A stretch of DNA of 36,506 nucleotides, from positions 1-36,506 of the forward strand of contig VGCA01000007.1 of NCBI GenBank assembly GCA_016870245.1, written 5' to 3'. Position numbers and translations under genes: made by a program. The notes beneath the pieces were generated by a model that was not told the origin of the DNA, did no database searches, and worked only from the letters and a program-made list of their open reading frames with translations. The stretch is from Actinomycetota bacterium (lineage in GTDB: Bacteria > Actinomycetota > Acidimicrobiia > IMCC26256 > PALSA-555). Below, piece after piece: positions 24,961-34,071 of this stretch (position 1 is its first letter; the number at the start of each line of letters is the position of its first letter).

Positions 24961-25620
24961 GTGGACAGCAAGCAGACTGCGCGAATGGGCACGCGGGAGC
25001 GACAGCGAGCGGCGACTCGGACGGCGATCCTCGAGGCGGCACGCGCCGCGTTCGTCGAATCCGGCTACGCGGGCACGACCATCACCTCGGTCGCCCATCT
25101 CGCGGATGTGTCGCCCGAGAGCATCTATCTCATCTTCACCAGCAAGCGCGGGCTGTTCGGAGCCGTCATGGAGGCGGCTGCCGCGGGCGATCGAACGGCG
25201 GTCGTTGACGAGTCCTGGATCGATGGCGTGAGGGCCGAGCCGGACCAACGGCGCCGGCTCGCGCTGATGGCGGAATCGACGCGTGACGTCTTGCGGAACG
25301 TCGCCCCGCTCGACGAGGCCGCCCGCGCCGCAGCGCTGTCCGATCCCGAGATCGCGGCGATGTGGCAGCTTCACGAGGAGCAACGACTTCGCGATACGCG
25401 TGTGCTCGTCGAGCTGCTCGCCGAGGCCGGCCCACTCAGAGTGACCGTCGCGGATGGGGCGGACCTGATGTGGGCGCTTTCCCGAAGCACCGACCTCTAC
25501 CGCGCACTCACGAAGGACCGCGGGTGGGACGACGACAAGGCCTTCACGGTCCTCAACGACCTCCTTGCGCGAGTGCTCCTCCCCGACTCGCCGAACGGGG
25601 TCGGACCGAGAGAGCGGTAG
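24961..25620 (+). CDS. TetR/AcrR family transcriptional regulator (GTG start)
   Basis: RERQRAATRTAILEAARAAFVESGYAGTTITSVAHLADVSPESIYLIFTSKRGLFGAVM HTH. Confidence 0.94.
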   Translation: MDSKQTARMGTRERQRAATRTAILEAARAAFVESGYAGTTITSVAHLADVSPESIYLIFTSKRGLFGAVMEAAAAGDRTAVVDESWIDGVRAEPDQRRRLALMAESTRDVLRNVAPLDEAARAAALSDPEIAAMWQLHEEQRLRDTRVLVELLAEAGPLRVTVADGADLMWALSRSTDLYRALTKDRGWDDDKAFTVLNDLLARVLLPDSPNGVGPRER

Positions 25621-25665: not shown

Positions 25666-26592
25666 TCAGTCGGAGACGTCGTCGAGGACGCCGCGCATCC
25701 GAGCGACGAACGCGGCGACGTTGTCGACGTCGACGGCACCCGCCTCGAAGGCCGTGAAGACGATCCGGTCGACGCCGAGCGCCGCCAGCTCACCCAGGAG
25801 CTCCGGGTCGGTGCCTCGCGAGTAGTCCCAGCTCCCCGGCCACACGGTGATCTCGATGGCGGCCGGGTCGCGGCCGGCGACGTCGGCGGCCCGGCGGATG
25901 GTCTCGATGCCTTCGGCCACCTCGGCGGGGCCGACGACGTAGGGGAACCAGCCGTCCCCGCGGGTGCCGGCGCGTCGGGCAGCGGCCGCCGATGATCCGC
26001 CGACGATGACGGGGACGCCGCCCGGCCGGACCGGCTTCGGGTCGACGTTCACGCGGGAGAAGGCGACGGTCGTCCCTGCGTAGCTCACGGGGTTCGGCGC
26101 CCAGCAGGCCCGCATGGCGTCGATGGTCTCGTCGAGGCGACGCCCCTTCCCCTCGTAGGGGACGTTGACGGCCCGGTACTCCTCGATCTGCCAGCCCATG
26201 CCGACGCCGAGGCGCACCCGGCCCGACGACATCCGATCGAGGGTCGCCACGGCTTTGGCGAGGATGAGCGCCGGGTGCTGGGTGGCGACGACGACGGAGG
26301 TGCCGAGCACCAAGCGCTCGGTGTGGGCGCCGACGAATGCGAGCACCTGCAGGGGATCGGGCATCAGTGCTGCGCCGCCGCCGGGCATGCGACCATCGGC
26401 CGAGTAGGGGTAGCGGGGCTCGTAGTCCTCGGCGACGAGGATGTGCTCGACCGCCCAGAACGACTCGGCTCCCGCGGCTTCGATCCCCGTGGCGAGCGCT
26501 TGGAGGTACGCGGGGTCACCGACGGTCTCGGGTGAGAAGGGGGGCAGCAGGCCGAGGCGCATCGCGCCGTCACGGGTTCCGGACGCCGTCAT
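25666..26592 (-). CDS. LLM-class (likely F420-dependent) flavin oxidoreductase
   Basis: LGLLPPFSPETVGDPAYLQALATGIEAAGAESFWAVEHILV; LVLGTSVVVATQHPALILAKAVATLDRMSSGRVRLGVGMGW. Confidence 0.92.
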   Translation of the reverse strand: MTASGTRDGAMRLGLLPPFSPETVGDPAYLQALATGIEAAGAESFWAVEHILVAEDYEPRYPYSADGRMPGGGAALMPDPLQVLAFVGAHTERLVLGTSVVVATQHPALILAKAVATLDRMSSGRVRLGVGMGWQIEEYRAVNVPYEGKGRRLDETIDAMRACWAPNPVSYAGTTVAFSRVNVDPKPVRPGGVPVIVGGSSAAAARRAGTRGDGWFPYVVGPAEVAEGIETIRRAADVAGRDPAAIEITVWPGSWDYSRGTDPELLGELAALGVDRIVFTAFEAGAVDVDNVAAFVARMRGVLDDVSD

Positions 26593-27810: not shown

Positions 27811-27856
27811 GGGTGCACTCCTCGTGCGCTCTTCGGAGGGGGCGCCGTGGCCCACT

Positions 27857-27880
27857 AGTCAAGCGGGATTGACGTGTCGG
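27857..27880. promoter_or_regulatory. Copy 1 of a shared operator-like motif, GTCAA-GCGGGA-TTGAC plus conserved CGTGTCGG flank
   Basis: Line 27841-27881 reads ...actagtcaagcgggattgacgtgtcggtg; 21/28 identical to the 30458-region copy. Confidence 0.65.
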
Positions 27881-28088
27881 TGCAAGCCAGGGCACAAGGG
27901 AACCCGCCGAGATGGCGTCGCCACGGACTAGTTTTCCCGGCCGTGACCGGGGATCGGCGCGCCGCGACGCCGGCGGGCTGGTGTGCGAGCCGACGGCGTT
28001 CGGTCACCTCCACCTGGGCGCGCGGCAGCATCAGACCCTGCGACTTCGGGCGGAGGCCGGTGGCGAGTCCGACGAAGGGAGCACCGCG

Positions 28089-28874
28089 ATGAAGCTCGAC
28101 GGCAGGGTGGCGCTGATCTCGGGGGGCGCTCGGGGACTGGGTCTGGCGATGGCCGAGGCATTCGTGGCCGAGGGCGCTCGGGTGATGATCGCCGATGTGC
28201 TCGATGACGAAGCAGCGGGCGCATGCCGGCGGCTCGGCGACGATGCCGCGTGGGTCCACCTCGACGTGACCGAGGAGGCGGAATGGGACCGCGCGGTCGC
28301 CGCGACGGTCGAGCGCTTCGGGCATCTCGACGTGCTGGTCAACAACGCGGGCACGGCGGAGGGCGCGCCCCTGTGGGAGATGTCGGCGGAGAGCTACCGG
28401 CGCGTGATCGATGTGAACCAGGTGGGGGTGTTCCTCGGGATGAAGGCGGTCGTCGCGGCCATGACCGCGGCGGGTCGGGGCTCGATCATCAACATCTCGT
28501 CGATGGACGGCCTGGTGGGCGTGCCGCGCATCATCTCCTACGTGGCGAGCAAGTGGGCGGTGCGGGGCATGACGAAGGCTGCGGCGATGGAGCTGGCGCC
28601 GCGCAACATCCGGGTCAACTCGATCCACCCGGGGAACGTGCACACGCTGCTCGCCGCGGTTCCGGGGCAGGACCGTGCGCCCGTGCGTGCGATGATCGAG
28701 ACCGCGACGAAGCGTCACGCGCCCATGGGGCGGGTGGGCGAGGCATCCGAGATCGCGTCCATGGCGGTGTTCCTCGCGTCGGATGACAGCTCGTACTCGA
28801 CCGGGTCGGAGTTCGTCGCCGACGGCGGCTTCACCGCCGGCTATCCGGGTCCGGGGTCGGCCGACCCGTTCTGA
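28089..28874 (+). CDS. SDR-family oxidoreductase
   Basis: GRVALISGGARGLGLAMAEAFVAEGARVMIADV; LVNNAGTAEG; YVASKWAVRGMTKAAAMELAPRNIRVNSIHPG. The catalytic Ser appears to be in NISSMDG. Confidence 0.95.
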   Translation: MKLDGRVALISGGARGLGLAMAEAFVAEGARVMIADVLDDEAAGACRRLGDDAAWVHLDVTEEAEWDRAVAATVERFGHLDVLVNNAGTAEGAPLWEMSAESYRRVIDVNQVGVFLGMKAVVAAMTAAGRGSIINISSMDGLVGVPRIISYVASKWAVRGMTKAAAMELAPRNIRVNSIHPGNVHTLLAAVPGQDRAPVRAMIETATKRHAPMGRVGEASEIASMAVFLASDDSSYSTGSEFVADGGFTAGYPGPGSADPF

Positions 28875-28928
28875 TCCCGCGCTCACCGCGCTCACCGTGC
28901 TCGGCGGGCCAGTCGCGGTCAGGAGCGG

Positions 28929-30389
28929 TCAGCGCGCGGCAACGTCGTAGTCGGCCGGGTCGATGGTGGCGGTGCGGTCGTGGAACTCCGTCATCGAGAA
29001 GGGCCATTGGGTGACGATGCGGCCCGAAGGCGTGCGGTAGTAGCCGTTGCACCCGAAGTTCCACACCGGGATGTCGGCGATGGCCTGTTGGACCTCGGCG
29101 TTGAAGCGCGTCATCGGCTCCGGGCGTACGTCGACCCACGCGAGGTGCTCGTCGCGCAGCCGGCGGATGTGGGCGAGGATGTGCTCGACCTGATACTCGA
29201 TCATCGTGAGGATCGAGCCGTTGTTCGTGTTGGGTCCGTAGAGCATGAAGAGGTTGGGGAACCCGGCGGTGGTGATGCCCAGGTAGGCGGTCGCTCCGTC
29301 GCTCCACGCATCGTCGATGCTCGTCCCGTCCCGACCCACGACGTCGATCGCCGACAGGTACTTGGTCGCGGCGAAGCCCGTCGCGAGGACGATCGTGTCG
29401 ACGACCCTCTCCTGTCCGTCGTCGGTCACGACGCCGTTGGGCGTGATCCGGACGATGGGCTCGGTGACGAGCTCGAGGTTCGGTTCGTTGAACGCGGGGT
29501 AGTACACGTTCGACATCAGCGGTCGCTTGCAGCCGAAGGGATGCTGTGGGCGCAGCTTCTCCCGCACCACGGGGTCCTGCACCTGGTCGATCGCCTGGTT
29601 GACCGCGGTGACCGAGAGGGCGAGCTTCTCGGTGTTGGTGAAGGTCATGCCCTTGTTCATCGAGTCCTCGACCTCGCGACGGAACTCGAGGATCGGGGTC
29701 GGGTCGTCGCGGAACGCCGCGAGCTGCTCGTCGGTGTACGGCGTGTCGATCTTCGGTGTGACCCAGTTCGCGGTGCGCTGGAAGAGGTGCACCATGGCGG
29801 CCTGCTTGCGGATCTCGGGCACGAACTGCACCGCCGAGGCCGCGGCGCCGATCACCGCCACGCGTTCTCCGGTGAGGTCGTGGTCCCAGTTCCACTGGGC
29901 CGAGTGGAACATCGTTCCGGCGAAGTCGTCGAGCCCGTCGATGGCCGGCCAGGCCAGGTCGTTGAACATGCCGATCGCACTCACCACCACGTCGGCGGTG
30001 ACCGTGGCGCCGTCGTCGAGGGTGAGCGCCCACGTGGCCGACGTCTCGTCCCAGACGGCGCGCGTGACCCCGTTGCCCAGGCGGACGTGGGGGAGCACGC
30101 CGAACTTCTCGGCGACGTGCTCCATGTAGGCGAGGATCTCGGGCTGGGTCCCGTAGGGCTTGGACCAGTCGGCCTTGATCTCGAACGAGAACGAGTACAG
30201 GGCGGACTGCACGTCGCACTCGCACCCGGGGTAGCGATTCAGGTTCCAGGTGCCCCCGACGCCGTCGGACTTCTCGAGGAGCACGAAGTCGTCGAAGCCT
30301 TCGTCGAGCAGGCGTTTGCCCATGCAGAGCCCGCCCGGTCCCGCGCCGATGATGGCGACCTGGACACGATCCGTTCCGTGTGTGCTCAT
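28929..30389 (-). CDS. FAD/NAD(P)-dependent monooxygenase, type I Baeyer-Villiger-like
   Basis: VAIIGAGPGGLCMGKRLLDEGFDDFVLLEKSDGVGGTWNLNRYPGCECDV; FAGTMFHSAQWNWD (FxGxxxHxxxW fingerprint); ERVAVIGAAASAVQ; VLATGF. Confidence 0.92.
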   Translation of the reverse strand: MSTHGTDRVQVAIIGAGPGGLCMGKRLLDEGFDDFVLLEKSDGVGGTWNLNRYPGCECDVQSALYSFSFEIKADWSKPYGTQPEILAYMEHVAEKFGVLPHVRLGNGVTRAVWDETSATWALTLDDGATVTADVVVSAIGMFNDLAWPAIDGLDDFAGTMFHSAQWNWDHDLTGERVAVIGAAASAVQFVPEIRKQAAMVHLFQRTANWVTPKIDTPYTDEQLAAFRDDPTPILEFRREVEDSMNKGMTFTNTEKLALSVTAVNQAIDQVQDPVVREKLRPQHPFGCKRPLMSNVYYPAFNEPNLELVTEPIVRITPNGVVTDDGQERVVDTIVLATGFAATKYLSAIDVVGRDGTSIDDAWSDGATAYLGITTAGFPNLFMLYGPNTNNGSILTMIEYQVEHILAHIRRLRDEHLAWVDVRPEPMTRFNAEVQQAIADIPVWNFGCNGYYRTPSGRIVTQWPFSMTEFHDRTATIDPADYDVAAR

Positions 30390-30457
30390 CGAAGTCTCCC
30401 GTTGCGTTCCCGATCGTCCCTCACGGCAACGATCCCGGCCGGCCGTGCAGAGTAGAG

Positions 30458-30481
30458 TACTCAAGCAGAATTGACGAGTTG
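30458..30481. promoter_or_regulatory. Copy 2 of the shared operator-like motif, TCAA-GCAGAA-TTGA plus CGAGTTGG flank, in the BVMO/MarR divergent region
   Basis: gtactcaagcagaattgacgagttgggg; overlaps TAGAGT/TACTCT -10-like elements of both directions. Confidence 0.65.
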
Positions 30482-30489
30482 GGGTCGCG

Positions 30490-31623
30490 GTGGTTGAGTC
30501 AGAGCGCGAGGTCGAGCGGGGCTCGGAAACCCATCGCAGCGCGGACAATGTGGTGCACCACCTGATCGCGATCGCCAACGACCTGCGTCGTCACATCGAT
30601 CGCGTGCTGGCGGATTCCGGGTACGAGCACCGGCGTCCCGCGTTCGCTCCGCTGTTCTCGCTTCTGTGGAAGGGGGCGGTGCCCCAGGGCCGACTCGCGG
30701 AGGCCCTGGGCGTGAGTGCCCAGGCTGCCAGCCAGTCGGTCGGGTTCGCCGCCCGCGCGGGGTTCGTGGCGCGCGTCGCCAACCCCGACGACGGCCGGTC
30801 GAAGCTCGTGGAGCTCACGGATCTGGGGCGTGCCTTCGTGTCCGATGGCGCGGACGCCATCACCGAGCGCGCCCGCGACTACTCGGCCATCATCGGTCCT
30901 CGCCGCTTCGCCCGCTTCGATCTCGCGTTGCGCCGGCTGTCGACCGGGATGCGCCTCGGTGCCGACGGCGATCCCGTCGCCAGCCTCGCGCCACGGGCGT
31001 CGATCATGGCGGTCGTGGCGTTGGCCGATGAGGCGATGCGCTCGCTGCACGAGGTGATGCACGCGGCCGGTCATGGGTGGATCACTGCGGGCCAGAACCT
31101 CGTCCTCGTGTACGTCGGCCCCGACGGGGCGCGGTCCAGCGAGCTGGCGCGGGTCCAGCGGGTGAGTCGCCAGGCGGTCAGCGCAGTGCTCCACGAGCTC
31201 GAGGCACAGCGATGTGTGCGGCGTCGGAGCGACTCGAACGACGGGCGGGGAGTCGTGTTCGTGCCGACCGCGAAGGGTCGTCGGGTGCTCGCCGACTACG
31301 TCGCCGGCATCGATGACGTGGAAGCCCGGTACACGGAGATCCTCGGGGCCGCTCGGTTCGAGGAGCTGGCCGGCACCGCGCGGGATCTCAGCCGCATCCT
31401 GGTGCTCGAGCACGCGTTCTCCCTCCCGGCCGACCCGTCGTCGCTTCCCACCACTCCGACCGAACGCCGCCGAGGTGAGCTCGCCGACCTCGGGGTCGAG
31501 CTGCTGCGATGGCTGGGCGAAGCCGACGCGTGGTGGCTCGCGGCGCACCTGCGTGAGCAGGTGATCGCGCGTATCGAGGATCCCATGACTGGATCCGTCG
31601 ACGCGGACCGGCGCTCCGGCTGA
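30490..31623 (+). CDS. Tandem double-MarR-domain transcriptional regulator (GTG start, 377 aa)
   Basis: Two wHTH units: PQGRLAEALGVSAQAASQSVGFAARAGFVARVANPDDGRSKLVELTDLGR and RSSELARVQRVSRQAVSAVLHELEAQRCVRRRSDSNDGRGVVFVPTAKGR. Confidence 0.88.
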   Translation: MVESEREVERGSETHRSADNVVHHLIAIANDLRRHIDRVLADSGYEHRRPAFAPLFSLLWKGAVPQGRLAEALGVSAQAASQSVGFAARAGFVARVANPDDGRSKLVELTDLGRAFVSDGADAITERARDYSAIIGPRRFARFDLALRRLSTGMRLGADGDPVASLAPRASIMAVVALADEAMRSLHEVMHAAGHGWITAGQNLVLVYVGPDGARSSELARVQRVSRQAVSAVLHELEAQRCVRRRSDSNDGRGVVFVPTAKGRRVLADYVAGIDDVEARYTEILGAARFEELAGTARDLSRILVLEHAFSLPADPSSLPTTPTERRRGELADLGVELLRWLGEADAWWLAAHLREQVIARIEDPMTGSVDADRRSG

Positions 31624-31636
31624 CGAGGAGGACCCC

Positions 31637-31690
31637 ATGACCGGCGGAGCGAACGACCCGACCGCGGGCTGCACGCGACGGACCGGATGA
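31637..31690 (+). CDS. Possible 17-aa leader/upstream ORF translationally coupled to the CoA-transferase
   Basis: SD GAGGAGG (31626ff) then ATG 31637 -> MTGGANDPTAGCTRRTG*; stop TGA 31688-31690 overlaps the ATGATG start of the next CDS. Confidence 0.4.
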   Translation: MTGGANDPTAGCTRRTG

Positions 31691-34071
31691 TGGCGGCGCG
31701 CGTGGTCGACGAGTCCCGCCCGCTCGACGGCGTCCAGGTCATCGAGTGTGCGACGGGGATCTCGGGACCCCTCCTCGGCAAGCTGTTCGTCGATGCCGGT
31801 GCCGACGTCGTCAAGGTCGAGCCGCCCGGCGGCGACCCGCTCCGGCGGTTCGCGTCGACGGTGTCGGTGCCGGATGGTCACGATGGGGCGCTGTTCCGCT
31901 ACTTGAACCGGGGCAAGCGCTCGACCGTGGGTTCGGTCGTCGATGCTCGGGTTCGCGCCCTGCTGCCCGGCGCGGACCTGCTGATCGACGACGGTGATCC
32001 GGCCCTCGACATCGCGGCGCTCCGCCGTTCCTGCCCCCGGCTCGCGGTCGTGTCGATCTCCGCGTTCGGTCGCGGCGGACCCTGGTCGGGCCGGCCCGCC
32101 ACCGACCTGACCATCCAGGCGGAGTCGGGCGGGCTGCAGTTCCGCGGGCCGACCGACCGACCTCCGGTGCAGGCCGGGGGTCGGATCTCGGAGTTCCTCG
32201 GTGGCCTGTTCGCCGCGGCCCCGGCGCTGGCCGCGGTGCTGCACGCGCGTTCCGGCGGTGAAGGGACGCATCTCGACCTGTCCCTCCACGACGTGATGGC
32301 CCTCTCGGGCACCAATCACCTCGACCTCGTGCACCAGCTCACGGGCGCGCCGGACGTCGGGCCTCCCGTGCGCACGCTCGACACGCCCGGGATCGAGCAG
32401 GCGCGCGACGGGCTGGTCGCGTTCAACTGCAATGCCGGGCACATGATGCAGATGTTCCTGCTCCTGCTCGGTCGGCCCGATCTCATGGAGGACCCGCAGT
32501 ACCTGAGCCTGAATGCCCGGCTCGGGATGGGTGCGTCGTGGCAGGACGTGATCGACGCGTGGGTGTCGACTCGCACGGTGCGCGAGGTCATCGACGACGC
32601 GGTCGCGCTGCGGGTTCCGGTGGCGCCGTGCCACGACGGCGCGTCGGTGGGCCACGACGAGCAGCTCGTCGCCCGCGACGTCTTCGTCACGGCCGAGGAC
32701 GGGCAGGTGGGGCTGCGCCCACCGTATCGATTGGGTGGGCAGGCCATCGGCGTACCGCCCCGTGCGCCGCGCCTGGGCGAGCACGACGCCGACGTGCGAC
32801 CGCGCCCTGCGCCCGAGCGGTCCATGGCCGCGCTCGGGACGGATCCGGCTCGGCCGCTCACCGGGCTCCGGGTGGTGGATCTGACGGCGTGGTGGGTCGG
32901 CGCGCTCACGACCCAGATCCTCGGTCGCCTCGGCGCCGACGTGATCCACATCGAAGGGCCGGGCAATCCTGACGGCATGCGGCTCCTGGGCAAGGTGCTC
33001 GCGCGCTCGGACGACTGGTGGGAGTACGGGCATGTCTTCGCCGCGGTGGACACCGATCGCCGTGGCATCGCCGTCGATCTCGGGACCGACGAGGGCCTTG
33101 GCCTCCTGTGGCGCCTGATCGAGCAGGCCGATGTGCTCGTCGAGAACTTCGCGCCGAGGGTGGCCGAGGCCTGGGGACTCACCCACGACGCCGTGCTCGC
33201 CCGGAATCCCGACATCGTCTACCTCCGGATGCCGGCGTTCGGCCTCGACGGCCCGTGGCGCGACCGCCCGGCCTTCGCCCAGACGATCGAGCCGATGTCC
33301 ACGATGTCGTCGATCACGGGCTTCGCCGACGGCATGCCGGTCTCGAAGGGCGGGCTGCCCGACCCGGTGGGGGGTGCGACCGGCGCCTGGGCTGCGTTGG
33401 TGGGCCTCGCGCAGCGTGCACGCACGGGTGCGCCGGTGGCGGTGGAGTCGGTGATGCTCGAAGCCGCGCTGCACGTCGCGGCCCAGCCGATGCTCGAGCA
33501 CCGCGCGTACGGCACCACGATGGGCCGCGCGGGCAACCGGGCCGCCCACGCTGCGCCGCAGGGCGTCTACCGCACTGCGGCAGAAGGCGAGTGGCTCACC
33601 GTGAGCGTGACGACCGACGCGCAGTGGCAGGCGCTCGCCGCGCGTGTGGGGGATCCGGCGCTCGCTCGCGACCCCCGGTTCACCTCCCACGACGGACGGG
33701 TCGAGCACCACGACTCGCTGGACACGATCATCGGAGCGTGGGTTGCGACCCGTGACGCCTCGACGGCCGCCGACGAGCTGTGCGCGCTCGGCGTGCCGGC
33801 CGGCTGGTGCCGCGACCCGCGACTGATTCGCCATCACCCGCAGTACCGGGCGCGTGGTCTGTTCGAGCCGGTGGACCATCCCGTCCTCGGACGCATCGAG
33901 GTCCCGGGCCAGCCGTATCGGGCACCCGGTGTGAGCAAGTGGATCACGCGCCCCGCGCCGACCTTCGGGCAGCACACGCGCGAGGTCCTCGGCGAGCTCG
34001 GCGTCACCGCCGACGCGATCGACGACCTCTACCGGCGGGGTGTGGTCGCCGATCGGCCTCGCGATCTCTGA
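31687..34071 (+). CDS. Tandem fused CaiB/BaiF-family CoA-transferase (794 aa)
   Basis: Two copies of the family pattern: PLDGVQVIECATGISGPLLGKLFVDAGADVVKVEPPGGDPLR and PLTGLRVVDLTAWWVGALTTQILGRLGADVIHIEGPGNPDGMR; GVYRTAAEGEWLTVSVTTDAQW. Confidence 0.93.
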   Translation: MMAARVVDESRPLDGVQVIECATGISGPLLGKLFVDAGADVVKVEPPGGDPLRRFASTVSVPDGHDGALFRYLNRGKRSTVGSVVDARVRALLPGADLLIDDGDPALDIAALRRSCPRLAVVSISAFGRGGPWSGRPATDLTIQAESGGLQFRGPTDRPPVQAGGRISEFLGGLFAAAPALAAVLHARSGGEGTHLDLSLHDVMALSGTNHLDLVHQLTGAPDVGPPVRTLDTPGIEQARDGLVAFNCNAGHMMQMFLLLLGRPDLMEDPQYLSLNARLGMGASWQDVIDAWVSTRTVREVIDDAVALRVPVAPCHDGASVGHDEQLVARDVFVTAEDGQVGLRPPYRLGGQAIGVPPRAPRLGEHDADVRPRPAPERSMAALGTDPARPLTGLRVVDLTAWWVGALTTQILGRLGADVIHIEGPGNPDGMRLLGKVLARSDDWWEYGHVFAAVDTDRRGIAVDLGTDEGLGLLWRLIEQADVLVENFAPRVAEAWGLTHDAVLARNPDIVYLRMPAFGLDGPWRDRPAFAQTIEPMSTMSSITGFADGMPVSKGGLPDPVGGATGAWAALVGLAQRARTGAPVAVESVMLEAALHVAAQPMLEHRAYGTTMGRAGNRAAHAAPQGVYRTAAEGEWLTVSVTTDAQWQALAARVGDPALARDPRFTSHDGRVEHHDSLDTIIGAWVATRDASTAADELCALGVPAGWCRDPRLIRHHPQYRARGLFEPVDHPVLGRIEVPGQPYRAPGVSKWITRPAPTFGQHTREVLGELGVTADAIDDLYRRGVVADRPRDL

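Follow-up and report, generated by a model that had tools for sequence, protein, structure and literature searches.

The two intergenic sequences described here are highly likely to be operators of a regulator with two MarR domains in a single chain, which would act as a pseudo-dimer repressor released by a pathway compound. Both lie within a stretch of 36,506 nucleotides of actinobacterial DNA (the window), the regulator being encoded at 30490–31623 between the BVMO and CoA-transferase genes (Table 1). The double-MarR regulator and both sites very probably form a small regulon, because a second species has the same pair of sites and distant bacteria have the site before their double-MarR genes.

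Table 1. Features of the window around the two predicted operators
Feature	Position	Strand	Remarks
Operator 1 (predicted), GTCAAGCGGGATTGAC (GTCAA-N6-TTGAC)	27858–27873		Between amidohydrolase (−) and SDR (+); orthologous site before G453 amidohydrolase
Operator 2 (predicted), CTCAAGCAGAATTGAC (TCAA-N6-TTGAC)	30460–30475		Between BVMO (−) and double-MarR (+); conserved in G002, L106 and Myxococcota-side loci
LLM class F420-dependent oxidoreductase	25666–26592	−	3 bp behind amidohydrolase
Amidohydrolase (Amidohydro_2), 404 aa	26596–27810	−	Nearest PDB chains DitZ and PtmU3
P450 C-terminus remnant	27978–28052	+	18/25 residues identical to end of G002 P450 preceding SDR
SDR oxidoreductase	28089–28874	+	Regulon membership uncertain; 95% in G002, 84% in G453
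Short Baeyer–Villiger-type flavin monooxygenase (BVMO), 486 aa	28929–30389	−	FMO-like; PDB matches are cyclohexanone/steroid monooxygenases; FxGxxxHxxxW at 156
TAGAGT, −10-like hexamer for MarR gene (inferred)	30453–30458	+	Just upstream of operator 2; TAGGGT in G002, TAGAGT in L106
TACTCT, −10-like hexamer for BVMO (inferred)	30454–30459	−	Abuts operator 2; TACCCT in G002, TACTCT in L106
Double-MarR regulator, 377 aa, two winged-helix domains	30490–31623	+	Pfam MarR_2 and MarR; AlphaFold model; best PDB match SarS 1p4x
Family III CoA-transferase (two matched stretches)	31687–34071	+	63 bp behind MarR; 87% in G002, same place

The two sites and their rarity

The two 28-mers, at 27855–27882 (site 1) and 30457–30484 (site 2) in plus-strand coordinates, are identical at 21 of 28 positions, exactly as an earlier sequence-only reading of this DNA had claimed, although its coordinates were about 2 bases off. 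That reading was also borne out in placing a TCAA-N6-TTGA dyad in both gaps (GTCAA-N6-TTGAC in site 1 and TCAA-N6-TTGAC in site 2), both facing the same way with respect to the minus-strand genes. On the minus strand, 48 bp separate the core of site 1 from the start of the Amidohydro_2 gene, and 71 bp separate that of site 2 from the start of the BVMO gene. On the plus-strand side, the SDR start is about 210 bp from site 1, and the GTG of the double-MarR gene comes 15 nt after the core of site 2.

With at most 3 mismatches, TCAAGCRGRATTGACGWGTYGG had two matches in the window versus none expected from 100 dinucleotide shuffles, and a genome scan with this 22-bp sequence at the same threshold returned only the same two places in 3,363,940 bases. 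In pattern searches of the genome, TCAA-N6-TTGAC was likewise confined to these two places across 3.36 Mb, site 1 being counted twice because GTCAA-N6-TTGAC is a full palindrome; at 95% completeness, in 385 contigs, the assembly may lack a third site. The extended pattern ACWCGTCAA-N6-TTGASTA, derived from the five sites in the window's genome (G000), another actinobacterial genome (G453) and a congener (G002), matched without mismatch at only these targets in the three genomes. No matches with 1–2 mismatches were found in them, the next best having 3, and relaxing the pattern to 3 mismatches as a route to a larger set of regulon sites was abandoned, as it brought scattered matches only. Among 397 genomes spread across Actinomycetota, a match was found in the window's genome only.

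Conservation of the sites in related genomes

Phylogenetic footprinting of both gaps largely supported the regulon, with the two-target pattern recurring in the independent genome G453. This genome encodes a full-length double-MarR protein that is 68% identical to that of the window (locus L106), with a divergent BVMO gene and the dyad between them, and a whole-genome search located TCAA-N6-TTGAC at exactly two places, namely in this gap and upstream of an amidohydrolase gene. The latter site is 32 bp upstream of a gene whose product is 84% identical to the window's amidohydrolase and which is on a different contig from the MarR locus. Read on the amidohydrolase strand, the sites are ACACGTCAATCCCGCTTGACTA in the window and ACACGTCAATCGCACTTGACTA in G453, in the same orientation.

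Site 1 could in principle be a functionless recent copy of a piece of the BVMO/MarR promoter, as the P450 remnant abutting the amidohydrolase block marks a past deletion or rearrangement, and it was a rearrangement that joined this block and site 1 to the SDR gene. However, the likeness between the two gaps is limited to the motif, and G453 has a counterpart of site 1, oriented alike, before the orthologous amidohydrolase, making such a copy extremely improbable.

The gene order SDR-BVMO-MarR-CoA-transferase of the window is found in G002 (SDR 95%, BVMO 91%, CoA-transferase 87%), where the BVMO/MarR gap retains TCAAGCAAAGTTGACGAGT. No close amidohydrolase was found in G002 (best 55%), the site being at BVMO/MarR only; the region upstream of its P450 and SDR genes, the latter 34 bp behind the former, is without the site. 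A second match in G002 (C80:6691), when read by eye, turned out to lie within a longer, unrelated palindrome in front of an ArsR-like gene and was rejected.

All five regulator-linked sites scored 16/16, and the upstream regions of 13 controls, which were BVMO, amidohydrolase or SDR homologs unlinked to the regulator and included the BVMO paralog of the window's own genome, scored at most 10/16. Where a genome lacks the regulator, its BVMO and amidohydrolase homologs thus also lack the site. The sites might instead be operators of another regulator, such as the TetR protein encoded at 24961–25620, about 2 kb from site 1, or a distant factor. This is very unlikely, given that the dyad accompanies the double-MarR gene across two phyla and is missing at homologous genes in genomes without that gene.

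Membership of the probable regulon

The sequence-only reading had placed the LLM, amidohydrolase, SDR, BVMO and double-MarR genes in a single regulon. As predicted members, the amidohydrolase, BVMO and double-MarR genes are strong. The LLM gene plausibly belongs only through its apparent co-transcription with the amidohydrolase gene across the 3-bp gap; an LLM gene was looked for next to the amidohydrolase in G453 and was absent. The membership of the SDR gene is uncertain because about 210 bp, including the P450 C-terminal remnant, separate its ATG from site 1, although its G453 ortholog closes a run of genes leading away from the equivalent site. The CoA-transferase gene, which was missing from that list, is possibly co-transcribed behind the MarR gene at a distance of 63 bp and is a probable member by that route.

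The BVMO has fingerprints of the type I family, FAGTMFHSAQW at 156 and GAGPGG (GxGxxG) at 15; the W is followed by N instead of P/D, and the Baeyer–Villiger activity is putative. In G453, the genes divergent from the amidohydrolase (L178:654–5444, −) encode a 286-aa protein that matched no Pfam or NCBIfam family, another BVMO-like protein and two SDRs, and this run is likely to be a catabolic operon. Its last gene, which reads away from the amidohydrolase site, is the ortholog of the window SDR gene (84%).

Structure of the double-MarR protein

Pfam searches with the double-MarR protein matched MarR_2 (7e-19, two stretches) and MarR (7e-11), and its Pfam and NCBIfam matches included no SarA model. 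In an AlphaFold model based on a four-sequence alignment (mean pLDDT 74.8, pTM 0.68), the MarR order of helices and wing is seen twice, with recognition helices at about 77–89 and 227–239 and the wing motif D-x-R in both domains. Comparison of double-MarR proteins indicated that the recognition helices and wings are kept in both domains, most strongly in domain 2. The nearest solved fold was SarS (1p4x; E 1e-4, 9% identity), followed by MarR chains.

The G002 regulator (L104:13817–14518, −) is a single-headed chimera of the domain-1 winged helix and the domain-2 C-terminal helices, and the operator next to it is unchanged. It looks as if this chimera arose by recombination between the two repeats. 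Because the site is kept although one winged helix is lost, a single-chain dimer appears not to be indispensable, and the G002 regulator, if it works, must act as an ordinary dimer.

The dyad at distant double-MarR loci

A search of the phylum to which G455, a Myxococcales relative, belongs with a profile built from four double-MarR proteins covered 379 genomes and identified 23 loci in 18 of them. The set in which the dyad was then analysed also comprised 23 loci, 3 of them actinobacterial and 20 from the Myxococcota-side profile search. In 19 of the 23, the 250 bp preceding the double-MarR gene contained an exact TCAA-N6-TTGA, whereas after mononucleotide shuffling it occurred in 0.03 loci on average and in no more than 1. 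At spacings of 3–5 and 7–12, no upstream dyad was found at any of the 23 loci, and a spacing of 2 occurred in two; the remainder of the loci (94 kb) contained no TCAA/TTGA dyad at spacing 6. Many Myxococcota-side loci have a third half-site, giving TTGAC-N6-GTCAA-N6-TTGA with an 11-bp period, and within the Myxococcota-side genomes this array of three half-sites is almost only at the double-MarR locus.

The four loci without the exact dyad have TTGC (three) or TTGT (one) as the right half. In the clade L198–L200, domain 1 has an altered wing and an altered recognition helix, with K in place of Q82, and the right half-site is TTGC, not TTGA, which points to domain 1 as the probable reader of the right half-site; this change counts as one event because the three loci form one clade.

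The dyad may alternatively be a pair of TTGACA-like −35 boxes that stand back to back and serve divergent promoters, kept for RNA polymerase rather than as an operator. All 16 Myxococcota-side loci with an exact dyad have a TANNNT −10 element at 17 or 18 bp from the right arm and a start codon just behind it, and their left arm is often TTGACA, with a weaker −10 element on the opposite strand. However, the window BVMO/MarR site and both amidohydrolase sites have no TANNNT 16–19 bp from either arm, and their arms are still kept; in the window, the MarR start codon is 15 nt behind the dyad, too close for a −10 element to fit between. The exact N6 spacing with variable filling and the match between the right half-site and the domain-1 changes would also be unexpected for unrelated −35 boxes. 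An origin as promoter boxes only is thus unlikely, and the Myxococcota operator likely also contains −35 boxes, its arms doubling as both. The double-MarR genes of L181–L197 look leaderless, with TANNNT 17–18 bp behind the right arm and only a few bases between it and the start codon.

The window sites themselves had been described as overlapping promoter-like elements, a claim that did not hold, as a sigma-70 scan passed no −35/−10 pair in either gap. The sole promoter-like element is a TANNNT −10-like hexamer abutting the dyad in the BVMO/MarR gap, and for the TAGAGT hexamer of the MarR gene the scan of this gap gave no −35 partner.

Proposed mechanism and significance

We propose that the two fused MarR domains may constitute a built-in dimer, in which one winged helix would contact each TCAA or TTGA half-site. 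The distance of about one helical turn between the half-sites suits such a single-chain pseudo-dimer, which would place one head on each of them. From the position of the sites we infer repression by promoter blocking. At 30460–30475, the regulator would block the divergent BVMO and MarR(-CoA-transferase) promoters and thereby regulate its own gene, and at 27858–27873 it would block the amidohydrolase(-LLM) promoter and perhaps also transcription towards the SDR gene. Release may be caused by a pathway substrate or intermediate, probably a cyclic ketone, lactone or acyl-CoA.

A broader reading, which we put forward tentatively and hold to be somewhat less probable than not, is that a single-chain double-MarR family common to Actinomycetota and Myxococcota uses 11-bp-phased half-site arrays whose reading is split between the two heads. 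The right half-site (TTGA, or TTGC in a single clade) would fall to domain 1 and the left one (TCAA) to domain 2, so that half-site specificity could evolve one head at a time.

The present analysis provides a candidate, testable regulator–operator pair and regulon for an oxidative pathway of an uncultured actinobacterium. Furthermore, it describes a family of fused MarR regulators that spans two phyla and allows protein heads to be paired with DNA half-sites. G002, with one head lost and the operator kept, is a natural experiment on the reason for the fusion.

Comparison with known systems

CouR and HpaR are examples of autoregulated, divergent MarR-family repressors of catabolic genes. The window resembles these systems in having a winged-helix regulator beside a divergent catabolic gene and a short inverted-repeat operator in the common gap. 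It differs from them in having two MarR domains per chain, the predicted operator TCAA-N6-TTGA and a second site at a separate amidohydrolase promoter. A literature search on the regulation of BVMO genes by MarR proteins returned nothing directly relevant, and SarS was the only tandem or double MarR protein covered by the papers searched, which is not proof of absence. SarS of Staphylococcus aureus, a two-headed regulator of the SarA family, has two homologous winged-helix halves (PMC10715151). The double-MarR protein shares with SarS, the best fold match of its model, the two winged-helix halves in one polypeptide; unlike SarS, to which it is 9% identical, it belongs to other organisms, has other targets and is associated with a short, defined palindrome at catabolic genes. 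The closest counterparts are the Myxococcota-side arrays (e.g. L181, L182, L184 and L185), which have a homologous regulator, the same core dyad and often a divergent BVMO gene, but which differ from the window in their extra half-site and in arms that double as −35 boxes, whereas the window sites consist of the core dyad only.
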